Shown here: piece after piece, positions 1,653 to 8,764 of the stretch | Layout: every line of letters begins with the position of its first letter | Position numbering within the stretch: position 1 is the stretch's first letter | DNA from: Dehalococcoidia bacterium | GTDB lineage: Bacteria; Chloroflexota; Dehalococcoidia; JACPQF01 | Assembly (NCBI GenBank): GCA_030650265.1 | Contig: JAUSEJ010000224.1 | Span: forward strand, 1-15,865 | Length of the DNA: 15,865 bases | Reading direction: 5' to 3' | Translations under genes and position numbers: made by a program | Notes under the pieces: generated by a model | Told to the model about the DNA's origin: nothing | Seen by the model: the letters and a program-made list of their open reading frames with translations, nothing else | Database searches by the model: none

Positions 1653-4600
1653 TCACTTCTCTCCGAGGCTTCCACGTGTAAGATGACGCGCTCTTGCCAG
1701 TCCGAAACCAAACCTTAGGCTCTTGGTTAGACCGATCGCCCCAATCGCTATGCCGCAGATGGACAGGGCGATGCCGCTCGTCCAGAGCCCTGTTCGCAAT
1801 GATTCCGGCTGGTAGGTAAACTCCACCCTGTGCTCCCCTTCCGGGACGGGCAGCGCTCTAAACATATAATTTGCTCTCAAAATTGGCGATGGCTTGCCGT
1901 CGATGGTAGCCTGCCAGCCGGGATAATAGGCGTCGGTCAGAACGAGAAGGCCGGGAGCCGCCAAATTGATATTAATCTTAACCAGTTCTGGCTGGTAGGA
2001 TTGAATAGTTACCTCGTCAGTAGTCGATGGTGAGGGGGCAGCAGCCATCGAAGACATGGCCTGCTGGCTCATGGGTGGCACGGCCTCCAGAACCAACTTG
2101 TCTCGTCCGTTCCTGAGAGACGCGTCGAGTGCGGCATCGCCTTTGGCTACTTCGAATTGACGGACCAAATAGGCGCGAGGAAGCCAGTCCAAATTCTCGT
2201 AGATCTTTATGTCGCCGCTATGAACTAGCTTGAGGTGCTGGTTCAAGACGACGGACTCGCTGTTATACGTGCGGTCGTCAACGAGGCTGAGGCCACGCAG
2301 TTTGAGTTCGACGCCAGCCGTCATCAGAGACGTGAATGAGATCTCCTTTGGATACATTACCCCTTTCAGATCAATCTTGGTAATGTAGTTGTAAGCTTGC
2401 GGATTGCCCTTCCACAAGGAGGAGATCTTCGCCTGCTTGTGGTTGACATTGGCCGAGGGGCGATTATAGTCACCCTCGGCGGTATCGATTCCCGCTTGTA
2501 GCGTCGAGGTGAAAGTCTTGCCTGTGCTGTCGGTAATCACGACTGTGGCGACCGGGGTAGTGGTTGTCAATCTCTCGGACCCCGACAAATATGATATCAG
2601 TCCGATCGAAGTTGTGGCAAATGATGGCAGGTTCGTCAAGCGTTGCGGGCTTGCCTTGTTCACCGTCAATGTTGTTCCCACGTCGTAGTAAACGTTATCG
2701 ACCCACGGATCGTAAGCCTTGTCGGCGATGATGTATTTGACGTTCAGCATACCGATGAAACGGGTATCCGGAATGCCATCAAGCTGTTCGCGTAGCAAGC
2801 CGTCGGCCTGCTCAAAGTTGCCCGCCTGTGACCGGGCAAGTGGGCTCGGTTCGCTGTTGATAATCAAGCGTTTGAAATCGGCGTAGTCTTTAAGTGGTAG
2901 GATGCCTCCATCGTAGCCGTCGATCGTGGGAATCTGGTACAAAAGGGGAAGGTTGGGTGTAAGAATCTCCTTGTACTTAGTTGCCACGATGTAATCTGCT
3001 ATGCGCTCGGGAGGTAACTGGTCCCGCAGAATGCGCTTCAGGTCGGGCATGTCTCCCGGATCGAATGATCCGACGGAGACGCTGAGAATCCGGAAGACAC
3101 TATTGTCGAGCTTGATCTGGAGAATGCTTGGTCTTAGAGAGGAAAAAGCCTGGGGAGGAACAGGATGATTGAGGTCCAGGTCGCTTTGCGCATAGAAAAG
3201 CTCCATGGCGACAAGGACCAACACACCAAGAGTTAGCTTGGCATCGGGGGCCCACAGTAGACCGATCAGAACAAGAGCCACACTCAGGCTGATAAGGGGA
3301 ATCCAGATGGCGAGGATTTCCCCACGAGGAAACTTGAGCAGCGGGTTGGTTAGCCATACGAGGCCGAATACCAGTAGAAGACTTAGAACGATCCAGAATT
3401 GTCTGTTACGCACGGAACTTAGGAAATCCCGGGCCGACAGTCTATGCAAGGCTGGCCGTACAAGACAGTCCATGCCAATTCCCGCCAGCGTGGCCGCGGC
3501 AAAGGTGTAAACGAGAAGCCAGCGAGCGGGGACGCGGAAAAGACTCAGTCCAGGGACCAGTTTGAAAGCGATGCCATAAAGCGGATTGAAGCCACCGAGG
3601 GCGAAGAAGATGGCCACGATGCCCAGCGCTACTGAGAACAGGGTGTAAGGGTTTTTCTTTCGGACGGCGAAGGCCAGAATGGCCAGAGAGATGGGAATGA
3701 ATCCCACATAGCCAACAAACTCGCTGAAAGGATTCTCAATGAAGCCCGGGAGTAAAGCGCGAAGAATCTCCCATGGCGGCAATGAGAATGACGTTGCGTC
3801 GCGCAAAGATAAACCGCCACCTCTAATCGACAGAGCCGACAGTTCGTAAGTTGGCAGGAGCTGAACGGCAGCCAATCCGACACCCAGGGCAACTACGGCG
3901 ACAAAGATTCCCGTGATCAGACCGACCTCTGTAAGAGAGCGGGATAGCATTCGTCCCGTGACGAACAGGTGGGGCCTCAAGCCAATGACTGAGGTCGCGC
4001 CAAGATCAAAGGCCCTCCCGATCCCAAGGAGAAGCTGGAGCAGATAGAACAGACCCAATGTGAACAAAGTCAGGTAGGATTCCTGTGAATGTCCGGCGAA
4101 GAATTGGACACCTATGGCCAAAGCGGTGAGGCAGGTGCACAAGGTGCTCTTTCGACGACAAGCCAGGTCGAAGAGTAGAAGGATGGTAGGTATCCAGGCG
4201 GCGGCGTTCTGCTGATTGATGTGCCCGACCTGCTGCGAAAGGAAACCGCTAAACATGTAGACAATAGCGGCCAATAAGGCGCTGGGATGATCGAGACGAA
4301 CGGAGATCTTGGCAAATGCGTACATACCGAGGCCCGCCAGGAAGACGTGAAACAGAATCGAAACGTTGACACCGTGTGGCGCATCAAGGCCGAGGAGATA
4401 GACGAATATGTTGACAGGGTAGAAGACCGCGGTCTGGATATTGGCAAGGAAAGGTACGCCGACGAACAGGTAGGGATTCCATAAGGGAATGTGCCCGCTC
4501 TGCAGGATCTCCGCTGCATATGCCCTGTAAGGATAGAAGAAGGTGAACAGGTCGTAATTAACTAGTATGAGATTGCCAAAGGCGATCCGGTTGTAGAAAG

Positions 4601-4751
4601 CGAGCGTGAGCGCAGCGAGGAGGAGAACGCAGAACAGCCAGGTGAAAGGCGATCTAATCGCATCTGCAAAGCCTTGAAGTCGTTTTTGCCGTCCGATTGT
4701 CTTTATTTCTCCGGGGACGTTCGATTCTTCCTGGGGTAGAGTGCTTTGCAT
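1653..4751 (-). CDS. YfhO-family multi-spanning membrane protein (putative GT-C-like glycosyl transfer)
   Basis: A 1032-residue integral membrane protein. A cytoplasmic tail of about 35 residues is followed by a first membrane helix (about 36-53). The family's N-terminal signature comes next: NYDLFTFFYPYRAYAAEI, with Asp67 in the position of the presumed GT-C acidic residue, then GHIPLWNPYLFVGVPFLANI. Many hydrophobic segments follow to about residue 530, then a long soluble region. A beta-rich tail segment starts DAYYPGWQATIDG at about 940, and a final membrane helix lies near 988-1010. This layout is that of the YfhO family, whose Bacillus member transfers lipid-linked GlcNAc onto lipoteichoic acid. 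The start is 2 bases after the GT2 stop, implying translational coupling and a joint function. The acceptor here is unknown; decoration of a surface polymer or protein is inference. Confidence 0.88.
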   Translation of the reverse strand: MQSTLPQEESNVPGEIKTIGRQKRLQGFADAIRSPFTWLFCVLLLAALTLAFYNRIAFGNLILVNYDLFTFFYPYRAYAAEILQSGHIPLWNPYLFVGVPFLANIQTAVFYPVNIFVYLLGLDAPHGVNVSILFHVFLAGLGMYAFAKISVRLDHPSALLAAIVYMFSGFLSQQVGHINQQNAAAWIPTILLLFDLACRRKSTLCTCLTALAIGVQFFAGHSQESYLTLFTLGLFYLLQLLLGIGRAFDLGATSVIGLRPHLFVTGRMLSRSLTEVGLITGIFVAVVALGVGLAAVQLLPTYELSALSIRGGGLSLRDATSFSLPPWEILRALLPGFIENPFSEFVGYVGFIPISLAILAFAVRKKNPYTLFSVALGIVAIFFALGGFNPLYGIAFKLVPGLSLFRVPARWLLVYTFAAATLAGIGMDCLVRPALHRLSARDFLSSVRNRQFWIVLSLLLVFGLVWLTNPLLKFPRGEILAIWIPLISLSVALVLIGLLWAPDAKLTLGVLVLVAMELFYAQSDLDLNHPVPPQAFSSLRPSILQIKLDNSVFRILSVSVGSFDPGDMPDLKRILRDQLPPERIADYIVATKYKEILTPNLPLLYQIPTIDGYDGGILPLKDYADFKRLIINSEPSPLARSQAGNFEQADGLLREQLDGIPDTRFIGMLNVKYIIADKAYDPWVDNVYYDVGTTLTVNKASPQRLTNLPSFATTSIGLISYLSGSERLTTTTPVATVVITDSTGKTFTSTLQAGIDTAEGDYNRPSANVNHKQAKISSLWKGNPQAYNYITKIDLKGVMYPKEISFTSLMTAGVELKLRGLSLVDDRTYNSESVVLNQHLKLVHSGDIKIYENLDWLPRAYLVRQFEVAKGDAALDASLRNGRDKLVLEAVPPMSQQAMSSMAAAPSPSTTDEVTIQSYQPELVKININLAAPGLLVLTDAYYPGWQATIDGKPSPILRANYMFRALPVPEGEHRVEFTYQPESLRTGLWTSGIALSICGIAIGAIGLTKSLRFGFGLARARHLTRGSLGEK

Positions 4752-4753
4752 CT

Positions 4754-5470
4754 TCAGTCAGAGAACCGGCATCTGATGAGCGTTGAGAGGACGGTAAAGC
4801 CATCTTTCCAACTGATCTTCTTGCCCGCGAAAAACGCCCGACCCTCATAGGAAATAGGCACCTCCTGAATCCGGTACCCCATCTTGAGGATCCTTGCTGT
4901 TATCTCGGGATCAAAGCCCCAGCGGGGAGATTTGAGTTGAATACGCCTCGCCACGTCGGCCGAGATTGTCTTGTAGCAAGTCTCCATGTCCGTTAGCGCC
5001 GTGCCGTAGAGCAGGTTTGCTGCGAGGGTGAGGAACTTGTTGCCAAGTGCGTGGCCAAGGGACATCGACTGGCGATGTCCGAGAAAGCGAGAGCCGTACA
5101 CTACTTTCTGCTCACCCGCGATTATCGGCTCAACCAGTGCAGGGTAGTCCTGAGGATCGTACTCGAGGTCGGCGTCTTGAATAATAACTATGTCCCCGGA
5201 GAACTGCGCCAGGCCGGTTCTTACCGCCGCTCCCTTTCCCATATTGTGAGGGTGGAGAAGCACCGTCATGTTCGCATACATGCCCGCCTTGCTGGCGAGT
5301 ATTTCGCGACTTCCGTCCGTGGAGAAGTCGTCCACACAGATGAGTTCTATCTCCAGATCGACGGCCTGCACGCGATCTATGATCGCGGCAAGCGTATCTT
5401 CTTCGTTGTATACCGGCATTACGACAGAAAGCTTGACTGCGTCTCTCTTTGTCAGCTTGGCTTCTGTCAT
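4754..5470 (-). CDS. Family 2 glycosyltransferase, dolichyl/polyprenyl-phosphate sugar synthase type
   Basis: A 238-residue GT2 enzyme. It has the N-terminal nucleotide-sugar fold LSVVMPVYNEEDTL (14-27), the VDDFSTDGS motif (46-54), the metal-binding DAD within IIQDADLEYDPQDYP (97-110), VYGSRF (124-129), and the family segments LTDMETCYK (159-167), WGFDPEIT (184-191) and EVPISYEGR with KKISWKDG (203-224). These match the DPM1-like group that moves a sugar from a nucleotide donor to a polyprenyl phosphate at the inner membrane face. There is no membrane segment, unlike CsbB or GtrB. The ATG at 5470 is the only ordinary start in this frame, because a stop lies just upstream. Its own ribosome site is weak, and it may be coupled to a six-codon upstream reading frame. 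It probably supplies lipid-linked sugar to the YfhO-type protein encoded next. Confidence 0.9.
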   Translation of the reverse strand: MTEAKLTKRDAVKLSVVMPVYNEEDTLAAIIDRVQAVDLEIELICVDDFSTDGSREILASKAGMYANMTVLLHPHNMGKGAAVRTGLAQFSGDIVIIQDADLEYDPQDYPALVEPIIAGEQKVVYGSRFLGHRQSMSLGHALGNKFLTLAANLLYGTALTDMETCYKTISADVARRIQLKSPRWGFDPEITARILKMGYRIQEVPISYEGRAFFAGKKISWKDGFTVLSTLIRCRFSD

Positions 5471-5503: not shown

Positions 5504-6085
5504 CTAATCATCCGCTTCGTGAGCCAGTAGGATCGCTTCTGCGACTTCTCTCATAGTCTTGCGGGTATTCATCGACAGCTTCTGAATCTTGCGGAAGGCC
5601 TCAGTCTCCTTCAATCCCTGACCGTCCATTAAGACACCCTTTGCCCGTTCTACAAGTTTCCGGGTCTCGAGGGTCTCCTTCAGGTCGCCGACTTCCTTTT
5701 CGAGCGTCTTGAACTCCTTGAATCTGGCCAGAGCTACCTCAATGGCGGGGACCAGCTCGGATTCTCTGAAGGGTTTGACAATATAGCCTACGACTCCGGC
5801 CTCTTTGGCCCTTTCGATCAGTTCTTGTTGGCTAAAAGCCGTGAGCAGGAGAACAGGAGCGATTCTCTCCTCAGTCAGAATTCTAGCGGCGGCGATGCCA
5901 TCAAGTCCAGGCATCTTGATGTCCATGATCACCAAGTCTGGCCGCAATTGCCTTGCCAAGTCGACCGCTGTCAAACCGTCACCGGCTTCGGCGACGACCT
6001 CATAGCCTTGAGCTGCCAGCATTTCCTTCATGTCCATGCGGATTATTGACTCGTCATCGGCGATGATCAGTTTTGTCGTTGCCAA
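5504..6085 (-). CDS. ANTAR-domain response regulator, PdtaR-like
   Basis: A 193-residue two-component regulator. The receiver domain (about 1-120) has the acidic pair Asp10-Asp11, the phospho-acceptor Asp55 in VIMDIKMPG, Thr81 in LLLTAFS and Lys103 in YIVKPF. A short coiled segment leads to an ANTAR domain (about 130-190) with the typical run LVERAKGVLMDGQGLKETEAF and a following helix NTRKTMREVAEAIL. ANTAR proteins bind paired six-base-loop RNA hairpins and usually prevent transcription termination. The start is a TTG at 6085, chosen because a perfect AGGAGG lies seven bases upstream. The gene follows its kinase by 25 bases. The unusual start codon together with a very strong ribosome site is notable. 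Function is assigned with high confidence; its RNA targets are unknown. Confidence 0.94.
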   Translation of the reverse strand: MATTKLIIADDESIIRMDMKEMLAAQGYEVVAEAGDGLTAVDLARQLRPDLVIMDIKMPGLDGIAAARILTEERIAPVLLLTAFSQQELIERAKEAGVVGYIVKPFRESELVPAIEVALARFKEFKTLEKEVGDLKETLETRKLVERAKGVLMDGQGLKETEAFRKIQKLSMNTRKTMREVAEAILLAHEADD

Positions 6086-6110: not shown

Positions 6111-7592
6111 TCACGCCTGCGGCTTTCTGGCGCTAGTGGTAAGCTTAGGAAAGGTTACGCGGGCGGTAACGCCATGGCCGTTGGCGAACTCGAACCGGCC
6201 CTTAAGGTCTTCTTTGACCAATGTGTTGACTATCTGCAAACCAAGGTGACCATTGTCGCTGCCGTGAAAGGAGCCCGGGAGGCCGATTCCGTCGTCGGTG
6301 ATTTCGATGCTGATCTCATCTTCAGTTTCCAAGAGTCTCACGAAAATGGTGCCGGCCGACCTTCCCGAGTAGGCATGTTTCACGGCATTCTGCAGCAGTT
6401 CATTCACAATGAGAGCGCATGATGTCGCTTGCTGGGCAGGAAGGTATAGATTAGCCCCTTCGAGCTTCAGAGCGATGTTTTTGGACGGATCGATGATGGC
6501 GTGCGTCACCTCGTTCAGTATACTTTGGCAAACCTCGGTAATGTTAATCACGCTTTCCTGGTCGTGCGAAAGGAACTCATGGACCACAGCTATGCTGAGG
6601 ATTCTGTTGATGCTGCTATCTAGCATTACCTCGACTTCGGGAATGGTAGATCGACGGGCCTGAAGTCGAAGTAGCGCCGCGATCGTTTGAAGGTTGTTCT
6701 TTACCCGATGGTGAATCTCCTGAATCATCGCGGACTTGATCTTCAGAGCCTGCTCTTTTCGTCTCTCGTCCGTAATATCGTTTATGACGAGGAAAGCGCC
6801 CCCGTATTGTGGGTTTGCTCCAAAGCGAGTGGAGAGCCAGGGCGTGCTTTCGTCGCCATCCAGGGGGATCACCTTTGTAATCCAGATCTGGTCGTTCCTC
6901 TCGGTCTCGCGTTCGGCGCAACGGCCACTTTCGAGAAACTCGCGCAAGTCGCCGCCCTCCCGGTCGATGCCTGGCAACTGGATTCCCAGCAGAGCACCGT
7001 AGTAGCCAACCCGGCGAAAGATTGCCACTGCTGTTCTGCTGACGTACTGTATCTGTCCCATGCCATCGATGGCCACTAGCCCATCGTGCTCTCTTATAGG
7101 AGTTAGAGTTCCTGCCCCTTCAAACCGGCCGTTGATGGCCATTACCAGGATCGCGGCCAGAGCTTCTCTCAGTACATGGCTCTTTCTCTTGAGACGGTCA
7201 TGTTCTGCCAGATCGGCTTCGATGGTCAGGACTGCTACTATCCCCCCTTCCTGGCCCGCCAGGGGATGGGCTACCTGCGCTGTGCGGGCGCCGGTCGTAG
7301 GTAGGCAACGTGAGCCCCTGGTCGATCTGCCCCGCTTCAAGGCCTGAAAAACTAGCGGTTCGTTCTTCAAACCGACTTGTTTCCCCACCTGGGTGGAGGC
7401 ATAGACCGGCGCTGTCGTGTGGGGGCTTGCATGGGCGATAACAATTGCTGTATTTGGCTGGGTGCCAGGTGCGTACAGCAGAAGGTCGGAGTGCAGCAGA
7501 TCAGCAAGTATGGGTAAAGTCTCTTCCAAGTTGCGCAGATATTCTGCATCGCATCGGGAAAGGCTGCCTATTTCGTTGAGATACCTGTTCAT
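6111..7592 (-). CDS. Sensor histidine kinase, PdtaS-like (HisKA_2 type)
   Basis: Reading from a GTG at 7607 gives 498 residues; from the preferred ATG at 7592 it gives 493. ATG is preferred because family members begin only a few residues before this point, but neither start has a recognisable ribosome site. In the longer numbering, an N-terminal GAF-like sensor (about 20-155, with ILADLLHSDLLLYAP and HASPHTTAPVY) is followed by a PAS domain (about 172-280). Next come a HisKA_2 dimerisation helix with HHRVKNNLQ (299-307) holding the phospho-acceptor histidine, and an ATP-binding domain with N box NELLQNAVK (402-410), DDGIGLP (438-444) and GHLGLQIV (453-460). No membrane helices are seen, so the kinase should be cytoplasmic. 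It pairs with the ANTAR regulator encoded immediately downstream. The sensed signal is unknown. Confidence 0.93.
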   Translation of the reverse strand: MNRYLNEIGSLSRCDAEYLRNLEETLPILADLLHSDLLLYAPGTQPNTAIVIAHASPHTTAPVYASTQVGKQVGLKNEPLVFQALKRGRSTRGSRCLPTTGARTAQVAHPLAGQEGGIVAVLTIEADLAEHDRLKRKSHVLREALAAILVMAINGRFEGAGTLTPIREHDGLVAIDGMGQIQYVSRTAVAIFRRVGYYGALLGIQLPGIDREGGDLREFLESGRCAERETERNDQIWITKVIPLDGDESTPWLSTRFGANPQYGGAFLVINDITDERRKEQALKIKSAMIQEIHHRVKNNLQTIAALLRLQARRSTIPEVEVMLDSSINRILSIAVVHEFLSHDQESVINITEVCQSILNEVTHAIIDPSKNIALKLEGANLYLPAQQATSCALIVNELLQNAVKHAYSGRSAGTIFVRLLETEDEISIEITDDGIGLPGSFHGSDNGHLGLQIVNTLVKEDLKGRFEFANGHGVTARVTFPKLTTSARKPQA

Positions 7593-7609
7593 AATGCACC
7601 GACGCACGG

Positions 7610-7649
7610 GGCGAGGTCTGTCTCGCCGTAGGTGGCCACAGCGCCAACC
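7610..7649 (-). ncRNA. Candidate tandem hexaloop hairpins (ANTAR-target-like) in kinase leader
   Basis: On the minus-strand transcript, 7649-7631 folds as GGT/ACC plus GGC/GCC with one bulged T and a six-base loop GCTGTG. After a three-base linker (7630-7628), 7627-7610 folds as a perfect six-pair stem GGCGAG/CTCGCC with the six-base loop ACAGAC. Two short stems with six-base loops and a short linker are the architecture known for ANTAR targets, whose loops have A at position 1 and G at position 4. The second loop has both; the first has G at 4 but G instead of A at 1. A competing CAGCG/CGCTG stem (7639-7653) overlaps the first hairpin. No following terminator is evident. GC-rich leaders can form such pairs by chance. 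Confidence 0.38.
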
Positions 7650-7729
7650 GCTGCCGACTCACTTCAAGCCTGGACCACGTTAGTTCAAACCCGGGCACGA
7701 TAGATTGCCAGGGAAACAAGGCAAATCGG

Positions 7730-7758
7730 ATTATAGCAAAGGTCCGACTGATTTACAA
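7730..7758 (-). promoter_or_regulatory. Sigma-70-type promoter for the kinase/ANTAR operon
   Basis: On the minus strand, TTGTAA (7758-7753) and a perfect TATAAT (7735-7730) are separated by 17 bases. They lie just after the gpsA stop (7766). The predicted start of transcription, near 7723, gives a leader of about 130 bases before the kinase ATG. Position and spacing are read directly; activity is inferred. Confidence 0.65.
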
Positions 7759-7765
7759 GAGCGTA

Positions 7766-8764
7766 TCATTCGTGCCTGGCGTCACGGAGCATCAACTCGG
7801 CTACGGCCCGGCGCGGGTGAAGACCTTCGAAGAGTACGCAGTAAATCTGCTCGGTTAAGGGCATTTCCACGCCAAGGCCGCGGGCCATGTCTCTGGCTGC
7901 CACTGTCGTGGAGACGCCTTCCGCCACGCTGTGCATCGAGTCCAGTATTTCTTGTAGGTAGCGTCCTTTGGCAAGTTGCTCTCCGACGAAATGGTTGCGG
8001 CTCAAGGGACTGATACAGGTAACGATAAGGTCACCCATACCGGCCAGCCCGGCAAAGGTTAACGGATTGGCCCCGGCGGCAACGCCCAGACGGGCGATCT
8101 CGGTCAGGCCCCGGGTAATAAAAGCCGACTTTCCGTTGTCCCCGTAGCCCAGCCCGTCACTCATGCCGGCGCCAAGGGCGATGATGTTCTTGAGCGACCC
8201 ACCTAACTCAATGCCCACGACATCGGCGTTCGTGTAAACCCGGAAGGTAGGAGTCATGATAAGACGCTGGGCTACGGCGGCAACGTCCAGATCTTTGCAG
8301 GCCACAGCAGTTGCGGCCGGCAGCTCCATTATTATCTCCCTGGCCAGATTTGGACCGGACAGAGCGCAAACGCGGCTACGGAGTGCTTGAGGAATCTCCT
8401 CGCCAATGACTTCGGTCATTCGCTTTAAGGTGCCCAGTTCCAGTCCTTTAGCCGCGCTTACTATCACCACATTCGGTTGGAGAAACGGGGCAGCGAGCCT
8501 GATATTCTGACGCATCGACTGAGATGGCACGGCCAAGATGACGAGAGCCGCCGGGCCGATAGCCTTCTCGATGTTGCACGTGACCGATAAACTCTCAGGA
8601 AAGTCCACGTTTGGGAGAAAAGCTTGATTGTGCCGGCCCTTGCTCAGGATCTCTGCTTCTTCGGAGGTTCTTGCCCACAAAGTTACATCAATACCGTTCC
8701 GGGCCATCATGATAGACAGGCACGTCCCCCAGCTTGTCGTGCCAACCACTGCTACCTTGGGCAT
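7766..8764 (-). CDS. gpsA: NAD(P)H-dependent glycerol-3-phosphate dehydrogenase
   Basis: A 332-residue cytoplasmic enzyme that reduces dihydroxyacetone phosphate to sn-glycerol 3-phosphate for phospholipid synthesis. Visible family features are the N-terminal Rossmann segment VAVVGTTSWGTCL (4-16), SAAKGLE (103-109) with Lys106, ALSGPNLAREI (134-144), GGSLKNIIALGAG (188-200) with the expected catalytic Lys192, and the C-terminal substrate segment GLAGMGDLIVTC with SPLSRN (252-257). Length is normal for the family. The usual GxGxxG loop reads GTTSWG, with Thr in place of the second glycine. The ATG follows the plsY stop by a single base, so the two lipid genes are translationally coupled. Its product is the substrate of PlsY. 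Confidence 0.96.
   Translation of the reverse strand: MPKVAVVGTTSWGTCLSIMMARNGIDVTLWARTSEEAEILSKGRHNQAFLPNVDFPESLSVTCNIEKAIGPAALVILAVPSQSMRQNIRLAAPFLQPNVVIVSAAKGLELGTLKRMTEVIGEEIPQALRSRVCALSGPNLAREIIMELPAATAVACKDLDVAAVAQRLIMTPTFRVYTNADVVGIELGGSLKNIIALGAGMSDGLGYGDNGKSAFITRGLTEIARLGVAAGANPLTFAGLAGMGDLIVTCISPLSRNHFVGEQLAKGRYLQEILDSMHSVAEGVSTTVAARDMARGLGVEMPLTEQIYCVLFEGLHPRRAVAELMLRDARHE

Follow-up and report, generated by a model that had tools for sequence, protein, structure and literature searches.

A PdtaS/PdtaR-like operon behind a conserved promoter and leader

The window, by which we mean the entire 15,865-nucleotide stretch of DNA analyzed here, carries a minus-strand operon that consists of a promoter, a leader, and genes encoding a PdtaS-like kinase and an ANTAR response regulator (Table 1). 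A family 2 glycosyltransferase (GT2) and a YfhO-family membrane protein are probably encoded by the same transcript. The sigma-70-like promoter scores 10/12 in a consensus scan, in agreement with the initial annotation, which had placed a leader with a good promoter ahead of the kinase start. The same annotation saw no terminator beside the hairpins of this leader, and the consensus scan of positions 7450–7900 likewise identified no intrinsic-terminator-like site. Inspected by eye, the leaders of the window and its closest relative show no shared upstream reading frame. Over its full length, the leader does not exceed its shuffles in stability (z 0.49; local stretch, z −1.09).

Table 1. Positions of the operon genes and leader features in the window
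Feature	Position	Strand	Basis or remark
YfhO-family membrane protein, gene 4 of probable operon	1653..4751	-	Pfam; 2 nt from GT2 gene; relatives
Glycosyltransferase family 2 (GT2), gene 3 of probable operon	4754..5470	-	Pfam; gene order; relatives
PdtaR-like response regulator, receiver and ANTAR domains, operon gene 2	5504..6085	-	Pfam; PDB matches 1s8n, 6wsh
PdtaS-like histidine kinase (GAF_PdtaS, HisKA_2, HATPase_c)	6111..7592	-	Pfam; N-termini at L001, L053 and L054
5' leader, ~130 nt	7593..7723	-	Transcription start inferred from -10
Hairpin H3, GTGC-GTCGGT-GCAT, weak, beside start codon	7594..7607	-	AATGC-ATCGGT-GCATT in L001
Likely Shine-Dalgarno sequence GGTG, 4 nt 5' of ATG	7597..7600	-	Sequence
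Hairpin H2, GGCGAG-ACAGAC-CTCGCC, 6-bp perfect stem, hexaloop with A1 and G4, proposed ANTAR site	7610..7627	-	
Hairpin H1, GG(U)UGGC-GCTGTG-GCCACC, bulged U, G4, no A1	7631..7649	-	Structure doubtful
Promoter: -35 TTGTAA (7753-7758), 17-nt spacer, extended -10 TGCTATAAT (TATAAT 7730-7735)	7730..7758	-	Consensus scan
gpsA, upstream neighbor of promoter	7766-8764	-	

The likely start of the kinase, ATG 7592, was chosen by eye from the N-termini of relatives at loci L053 and L054; Pfam domains were called on the frame opened from GTG 7607. This GTG is a less likely start, with no Shine-Dalgarno sequence seen before it. An in-frame alternative start 15 nt 5' of the likely ATG lies inside hairpin H3 and is GTG in the window and ATG in L001.

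Locus L001, from a groundwater Chloroflexi genome, is the closest relative found, and IMG/VR, when searched with the kinase, yielded nothing closer. Gene order in its operon is the same as in the window, with 76% identity for the kinase, 93% for the ANTAR protein and 76% each for the GT2 and YfhO proteins. The promoter stretch CCTTTGCTATAATC is identical in the two. Upstream of the L001 operon there is no match to gpsA; another gene, cysteine synthase by eye, is found there instead. Because the promoter and leader of L001 align with those of the window despite this different upstream gene, the leader travels with the operon. Identity in the alignment is 44/82 columns from the −10 to H1, 18/20 in H1, 13/19 in H2, 13/17 from H2 to the ATG and 36/42 in the first codons.

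Downstream of the ANTAR gene, GT2 relatives occur in L001, L002, L054 and L077, as in the window, and YfhO relatives in L001, L002 and L077; the latter did not appear at L054, where the locus is short. The presence of these two genes (1653–5470 in the window) hints at a link between cell-envelope glycosylation and the signaling pair.

A conserved hairpin upstream of the kinase start codon

Hairpin H2 extends from −35 to −18 relative to ATG 7592. In a whole-leader fold its pair probabilities are 0.97–1.0 in the window, and those in L001 are 0.93–0.94. Its loop has A at position 1 and G at position 4 (A1 and G4), and that of H1 has G4 only, exactly as first annotated. H2 displays what is expected of a single-hexaloop site, a stable hairpin with G4 in a hexaloop. 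Between the window and L001, one stem pair has changed both of its bases (G-C to A-U) and all others remain paired; loop positions 2, 3 and 5 differ, and A1, G4 and C6 are retained. The loop-closing pair is G:C in both. Sliding the partner strand as a control reduced pairing from 100% to 32%–63%. A pair-shuffle control on the window and L001 alone, in which 246/500 shuffles reached the same covariation, lacks power because it has only two sequences.

Two further relatives have a hairpin in the same place as H2, L053 (CTCGTTC-ACTGAC-GAGCGGG) and L054 (GCCGTTC-GCTGCT-GAACGGC). Since a MAFFT alignment of all four leaders misaligned both lineages, pair counts were made per lineage. Six inner pairs can be aligned between L053 and L054, the outermost seventh pair being excluded as it sits in a gap; two of these are altered on one side, none is broken, and there is no double change. 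The compensatory changes that the initial annotation suggested looking for in such alignments are therefore limited to the one double change between the window and L001, with none in the other lineage. The L054 hairpin has G at loop position 1 and pair probabilities of 0.35–0.36. Among the window, L001, L053 and L054, G4 is present in 4/4 and A1 in 3/4.

A G4 hexaloop hairpin that has at least six pairs, reaches −7 kcal/mol or lower and begins between −40 and 0 is found in 4/43 Chloroflexota kinase leaders, those of the window, L001, L053 and L054, with positions taken relative to query residue 1, which is not a proven start codon, and with a strength threshold picked after H2 had been seen. 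None of the other 39 leaders (0/39) has one at that strength. Relaxing the count to five pairs adds L223 (loop TAGGGC), and relaxing it to four pairs and −5 kcal/mol adds L008 (GACGAA); in three other leaders (L029, L018 and L026) a strong G4 hexaloop lies farther upstream. The leader set began with 36 rows. Of 16 further loci, L053 was already included, eight duplicates were dropped and seven were added, to give 43. Duplicate loci of the same kinases (L046, L047, L049, L051, L052 and L055) were excluded, as were kinase matches weaker than a tblastn E value of 1e-60, including 12 non-Chloroflexota loci (L034–L045).

A tree built from the 43 kinases places the four hairpin-bearing members in one clade with support of 94/83, just below the mark that the tool uses for well-supported groups, and each of its halves has support of 100/100. 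Adding L002 gives a five-member clade (100/98). L002 has gpsA upstream, the operon and an ANTAR protein 80% identical to that of the window, and has no such hairpin. The L053 locus stops soon after the kinase gene, and the ANTAR gene was not seen on the kinase contig. A different contig of that genome carries the gene for an ANTAR protein with 74% identity to that of the window, and genes for relatives of GT2 and YfhO come after it; adjacency of kinase and ANTAR genes in L053 is likely.

The operon's regulator shares most RNA-contact residues with EutV

The window ANTAR protein matches the ANTAR Pfam family with 80.2 bits and has a receiver Asp. Its best PDB matches are 1s8n (211.6 bits), deposited as a putative antiterminator, and 6wsh (151.6 bits). 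We take 1s8n to be Rv1626/PdtaR. The second structure, 6WSH, is EutV, for which 11 RNA-contact residues are reported (PMC8934654). The window protein has seven of the 11 and differs at the remaining four, with Phe for Tyr164, Arg for Lys147, Gln for Arg168 and Thr for Arg177; the numbering was transferred from the aligned 6wsh chain, which is two ahead of the paper's, and 11/11 residue types match after the shift. Tyr164 is the G4-stacking tyrosine of EutV, and the Phe in its place is likewise aromatic. The operon hence supplies a presumed cognate ANTAR protein that retains most of these residues.

The genomes of L001, L053 and L054 each encode a second ANTAR protein in which Gln and Asn replace EutV Met172 and Arg175, both loop-contact residues, and which possibly differs in RNA specificity. 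Because of these changes, a partner of H2 is better sought in the regulator encoded by the operon itself. Second ANTAR proteins with these replacements are recorded in the L001 genome, as part of a second kinase-ANTAR pair on contig C138 of G001 (L050, L069), and in genomes G067 and G007 (L075, L076).

A model for translational autoregulation

With moderate confidence, we propose that H2 is a single-hexaloop site for the ANTAR regulator of its own operon and limits translation of the pdtaS-pdtaR-like genes. The kinase would activate the regulator, which would then dock on the A1/G4 loop of H2 just 5' of the kinase start codon and block ribosome loading at the adjacent Shine-Dalgarno sequence, so that the operon would restrict its own translation. 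Blocked ribosome loading is the simplest reading because no terminator was found and H2 ends at −18. We presume this end to lie inside the ribosome footprint. We infer the binding of the regulator to H2, its dependence on phosphorylation and its sign (repression, not activation); the computed support consists of a predicted hairpin conserved within one clade, the A1/G4 loop, the position and the ANTAR contact residues. Tentatively, the operon of this one Chloroflexota clade may control its own translation through a single ANTAR hexaloop at the ribosome-binding region, in a closed feedback loop. Autoregulation through a hairpin RNA, as initially annotated, survives to the extent that an A1/G4 hairpin is kept near the ribosome-binding site in the closest clade, but its paired-hexaloop form is not supported.

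Several observations count against an ANTAR site. The hairpin occurs in only two separate lineages and its covariation is thin; the L054 loop has G at position 1, L002 is without the hairpin, and the closing pair is G:C. In addition, the regulon scan described below revealed no excess of similar hairpins.

Between H2 and the start codon lies H3, which covers the likely Shine-Dalgarno sequence. Its pair probabilities are 0.26–0.30 in the window and 0.84–1.0 in L001, and its window loop has G, not A, at position 1. We also considered a switch in which CACC of H1 pairs with the Shine-Dalgarno GGTG, and rejected it, as only four pairs would form.

Alternative readings of the leader

The alternative that fares best, although we regard it as unlikely, is that H2, though genuine and conserved as a hairpin, has another role in the leader, setting translation rate or mRNA stability or binding something else. 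Conservation backs a hairpin more firmly than it does a protein partner, and A1 is less constant in the clade than G4. The genome of L001 also gives no sign of other sites. We scanned 1.83 of its roughly 3.2 Mb (~57%) for hairpins of at least four pairs and −5 kcal/mol or lower, and at 1,388 gene starts A1/G4 loops showed no excess (39 observed versus 35.7 expected). Two A1/G4 dual candidates (L107 and L211) fall within reading frames. A covariance model of H1–H3 built from the window and L001 leaders (R1) had no match in this genome besides the leader itself. If H2 is an ANTAR site, it would be one of few, or the other sites look different. Against a hairpin of unrelated function stands the A1/G4 signature, which fits the regulator encoded on the same transcript. 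The retention of loop positions 1 and 4 while 2, 3 and 5 changed points weakly the same way: by hand calculation, random change at three of the six loop positions would spare both 1 and 4 in 4/20 cases.

It is improbable that H1 and H2 jointly form a dual-hexaloop target, as had been proposed at first. Both hairpins can indeed be drawn side by side at 7610–7649 with a 3-nt linker, the linker length is retained in L001, and the H1 loop has G4 in both genomes, with a C:G closing pair in the window. H2 is solid, but H1 hardly forms: its pair probability is at most 0.01 in the window and at most 0.02 in L001. In the window it is outcompeted by GCAGCG-GUUGG-CGCUGU at 7638–7654, with pair probabilities of 0.61–0.98. 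In L001, the H1 bases shift register and form TTGGTG with CACCAA (0.70–0.97 for five of six pairs), which consumes part of the H1-H2 linker; when the fold is limited to the final 65 nt together with 30 coding nt, the H1 stem forms with a four-base loop. That H1 does not win in L001 either lowered our estimate for the dual form. No other piece of the leader is as conserved as the H1 stretch, and yet its predicted folds differ between the two genomes.

The loop sequences, and less clearly the linker, speak against a dual site as well. Dual-hexaloop targets are defined by two hairpins of at least three pairs each, with A1 and G4 in both loops (PMC3369931, PMC8164766). H2 has both bases, but the H1 loop lacks A1 in the window and in L001, with G at position 1 in the window, and a pair scan for perfect stems found no partner hexaloop in L053 or L054. 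Linkers of 2–25 nt were accepted for actinobacterial targets and those of the E. faecalis eut RNAs measure 5–12 nt (PMC3369931, PMC8164766); the 3-nt linker of the window is within the former range and below the latter. In eutP, a linker trimmed to 3 nt brought a drastic loss of induction (PMC3369931).

Chance is similarly hard to credit as the source of H2, in the sense that GC-rich leaders often form hairpins and that the four-genome pattern reflects coincidence and shared ancestry. Any hexaloop hairpin of the strength of H2 arises in 8%–16% of shuffled leaders and a G4 version in 2%–8%, the thresholds were set post hoc, only two separate lineages are involved, and weaker look-alikes exist in L223 and L008. 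The A1/G4 form is much closer to 1% in dinucleotide-shuffled leaders (0.85% for the window, 0.5% for L001, 1.2% for L053 and 0.75% for L054), and it recurs at the same position in two separate lineages, that of the window and L001 and that of L053. Even with post hoc thresholds, such a recurrence by chance is unlikely. Pairing has also been kept under substitution. A strong A1/G4 hexaloop hairpin (at least six pairs, −7 kcal/mol or lower) occurs at 4/289 gene starts of the window and L001–L045, non-Chloroflexota loci included; two of the four belong to the window and L001 kinases, leaving 2/287 elsewhere.

Scanning the window against Rfam with E values up to 5 gave no match, and Rfam may not include an ANTAR family. 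In 70 genomes, the sole strong match to R1 is the L001 leader (87.8 bits), which is so by construction. The other 43 matches listed, treated as chance, reach at most 28.4 bits, with E values of 0.0039 or worse per genome under a rough calibration and stricter filters. R1 does not list the L053 and L054 leaders, and so it is a model of near relatives only.

Finally, it is very improbable that the regulator acts on transcription by preventing a Rho-dependent or unrecognized terminator in the leader: antitermination is the classical ANTAR mechanism (PMC3369931), but 7450–7900 contains no intrinsic-terminator-like site and with H2 ending at −18, a terminator would hardly fit in front of the gene.

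Comparison with known ANTAR systems

Single-hexaloop recognition, on which our proposal depends, has precedents. From the EutV-RNA structure, a minimal motif with one hexaloop was argued, and binding of EutV to P1 or P2, each a single hairpin, did not differ significantly from that to the whole motif (PMC8934654). For NasR, a lone hairpin is bound less tightly, at about 12 µM, and selection with NasR favored a C:G loop-closing pair (PMC7496416). Stem-loops near ribosome-binding sites in M. tuberculosis do not always have a dual motif, and the natural extent of single-hexaloop sites is said to need work (PMC8934654).

Translational control had been called unusual for this family in the initial annotation, a view we do not share. 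ANTAR-target matches near or over ribosome-binding sites were reported by Ramesh 2012 (PMC3369931), and Mehta and Ramesh 2021 found overlap with the ribosome-binding site or AUG for about 37% of 611 actinobacterial ANTAR targets (PMC8164766); translational control is therefore not unusual. In the window, H2 ends at −18, presumably inside the ribosome footprint, and only the weaker H3 covers the Shine-Dalgarno sequence. The proposed site is like those actinobacterial targets in its position in the ribosome-binding region and in the translational control proposed; they are dual hexaloops from actinobacteria, whereas the window, from Chloroflexota, has one good hexaloop in a kinase-regulator operon (PMC8164766).

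The EutV/eutP, NasR/nasF and AmiR/amiE systems share with the window an A1/G4 hexaloop hairpin in a 5' leader (PMC3369931, PMC8934654), and EutV is, like the window protein, a receiver-ANTAR regulator (PMC8934654). Unlike these systems, the window has no second proper hexaloop and no terminator that we found, including the one overlapping the second hairpin that marks ANTAR antitermination (scan of 7450–7900), and its proposed target is the regulator's own operon. Also comparable is the M. tuberculosis PPE1-5' RNA, three hairpins of which lie near the initiation codon, and which is bound by phosphorylated PdtaR (PMC8131098). Both cases involve a PdtaS/PdtaR-type pair and hairpins clustered at an initiation codon. 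For PPE1-5' RNA, titration of PdtaR in trans was proposed (PMC8131098), whereas we propose a cis site on the regulator's own mRNA.

ANTAR target RNAs have been described in Firmicutes, Proteobacteria and Actinobacteria (PMC3369931, PMC8164766, PMC8934654). A literature search for one in Chloroflexota, in which papers on ANTAR and Chloroflexi were judged by title, found none, and neither PMC3369931 nor PMC8164766 uses the word Chloroflexi in its main text. If our proposal is correct, H2 would be a natural cis target with one hexaloop only, and an RNA-binding two-component system would here regulate itself through feedback. With its short leader, a single good A1/G4 hairpin and the kinase and presumed binder encoded alongside, the operon offers a compact test system.

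A different arrangement was seen upstream of other PdtaS-like kinases. In five of the seven Chloroflexota loci checked (L004, L007, L009, L012 and L030), a tRNA-Pro(GGG) gene lies directly 5' of the kinase gene; there is none at the remaining two, L011 and L018. In loci with the tRNA gene, the kinase may be transcribed from the tRNA promoter.
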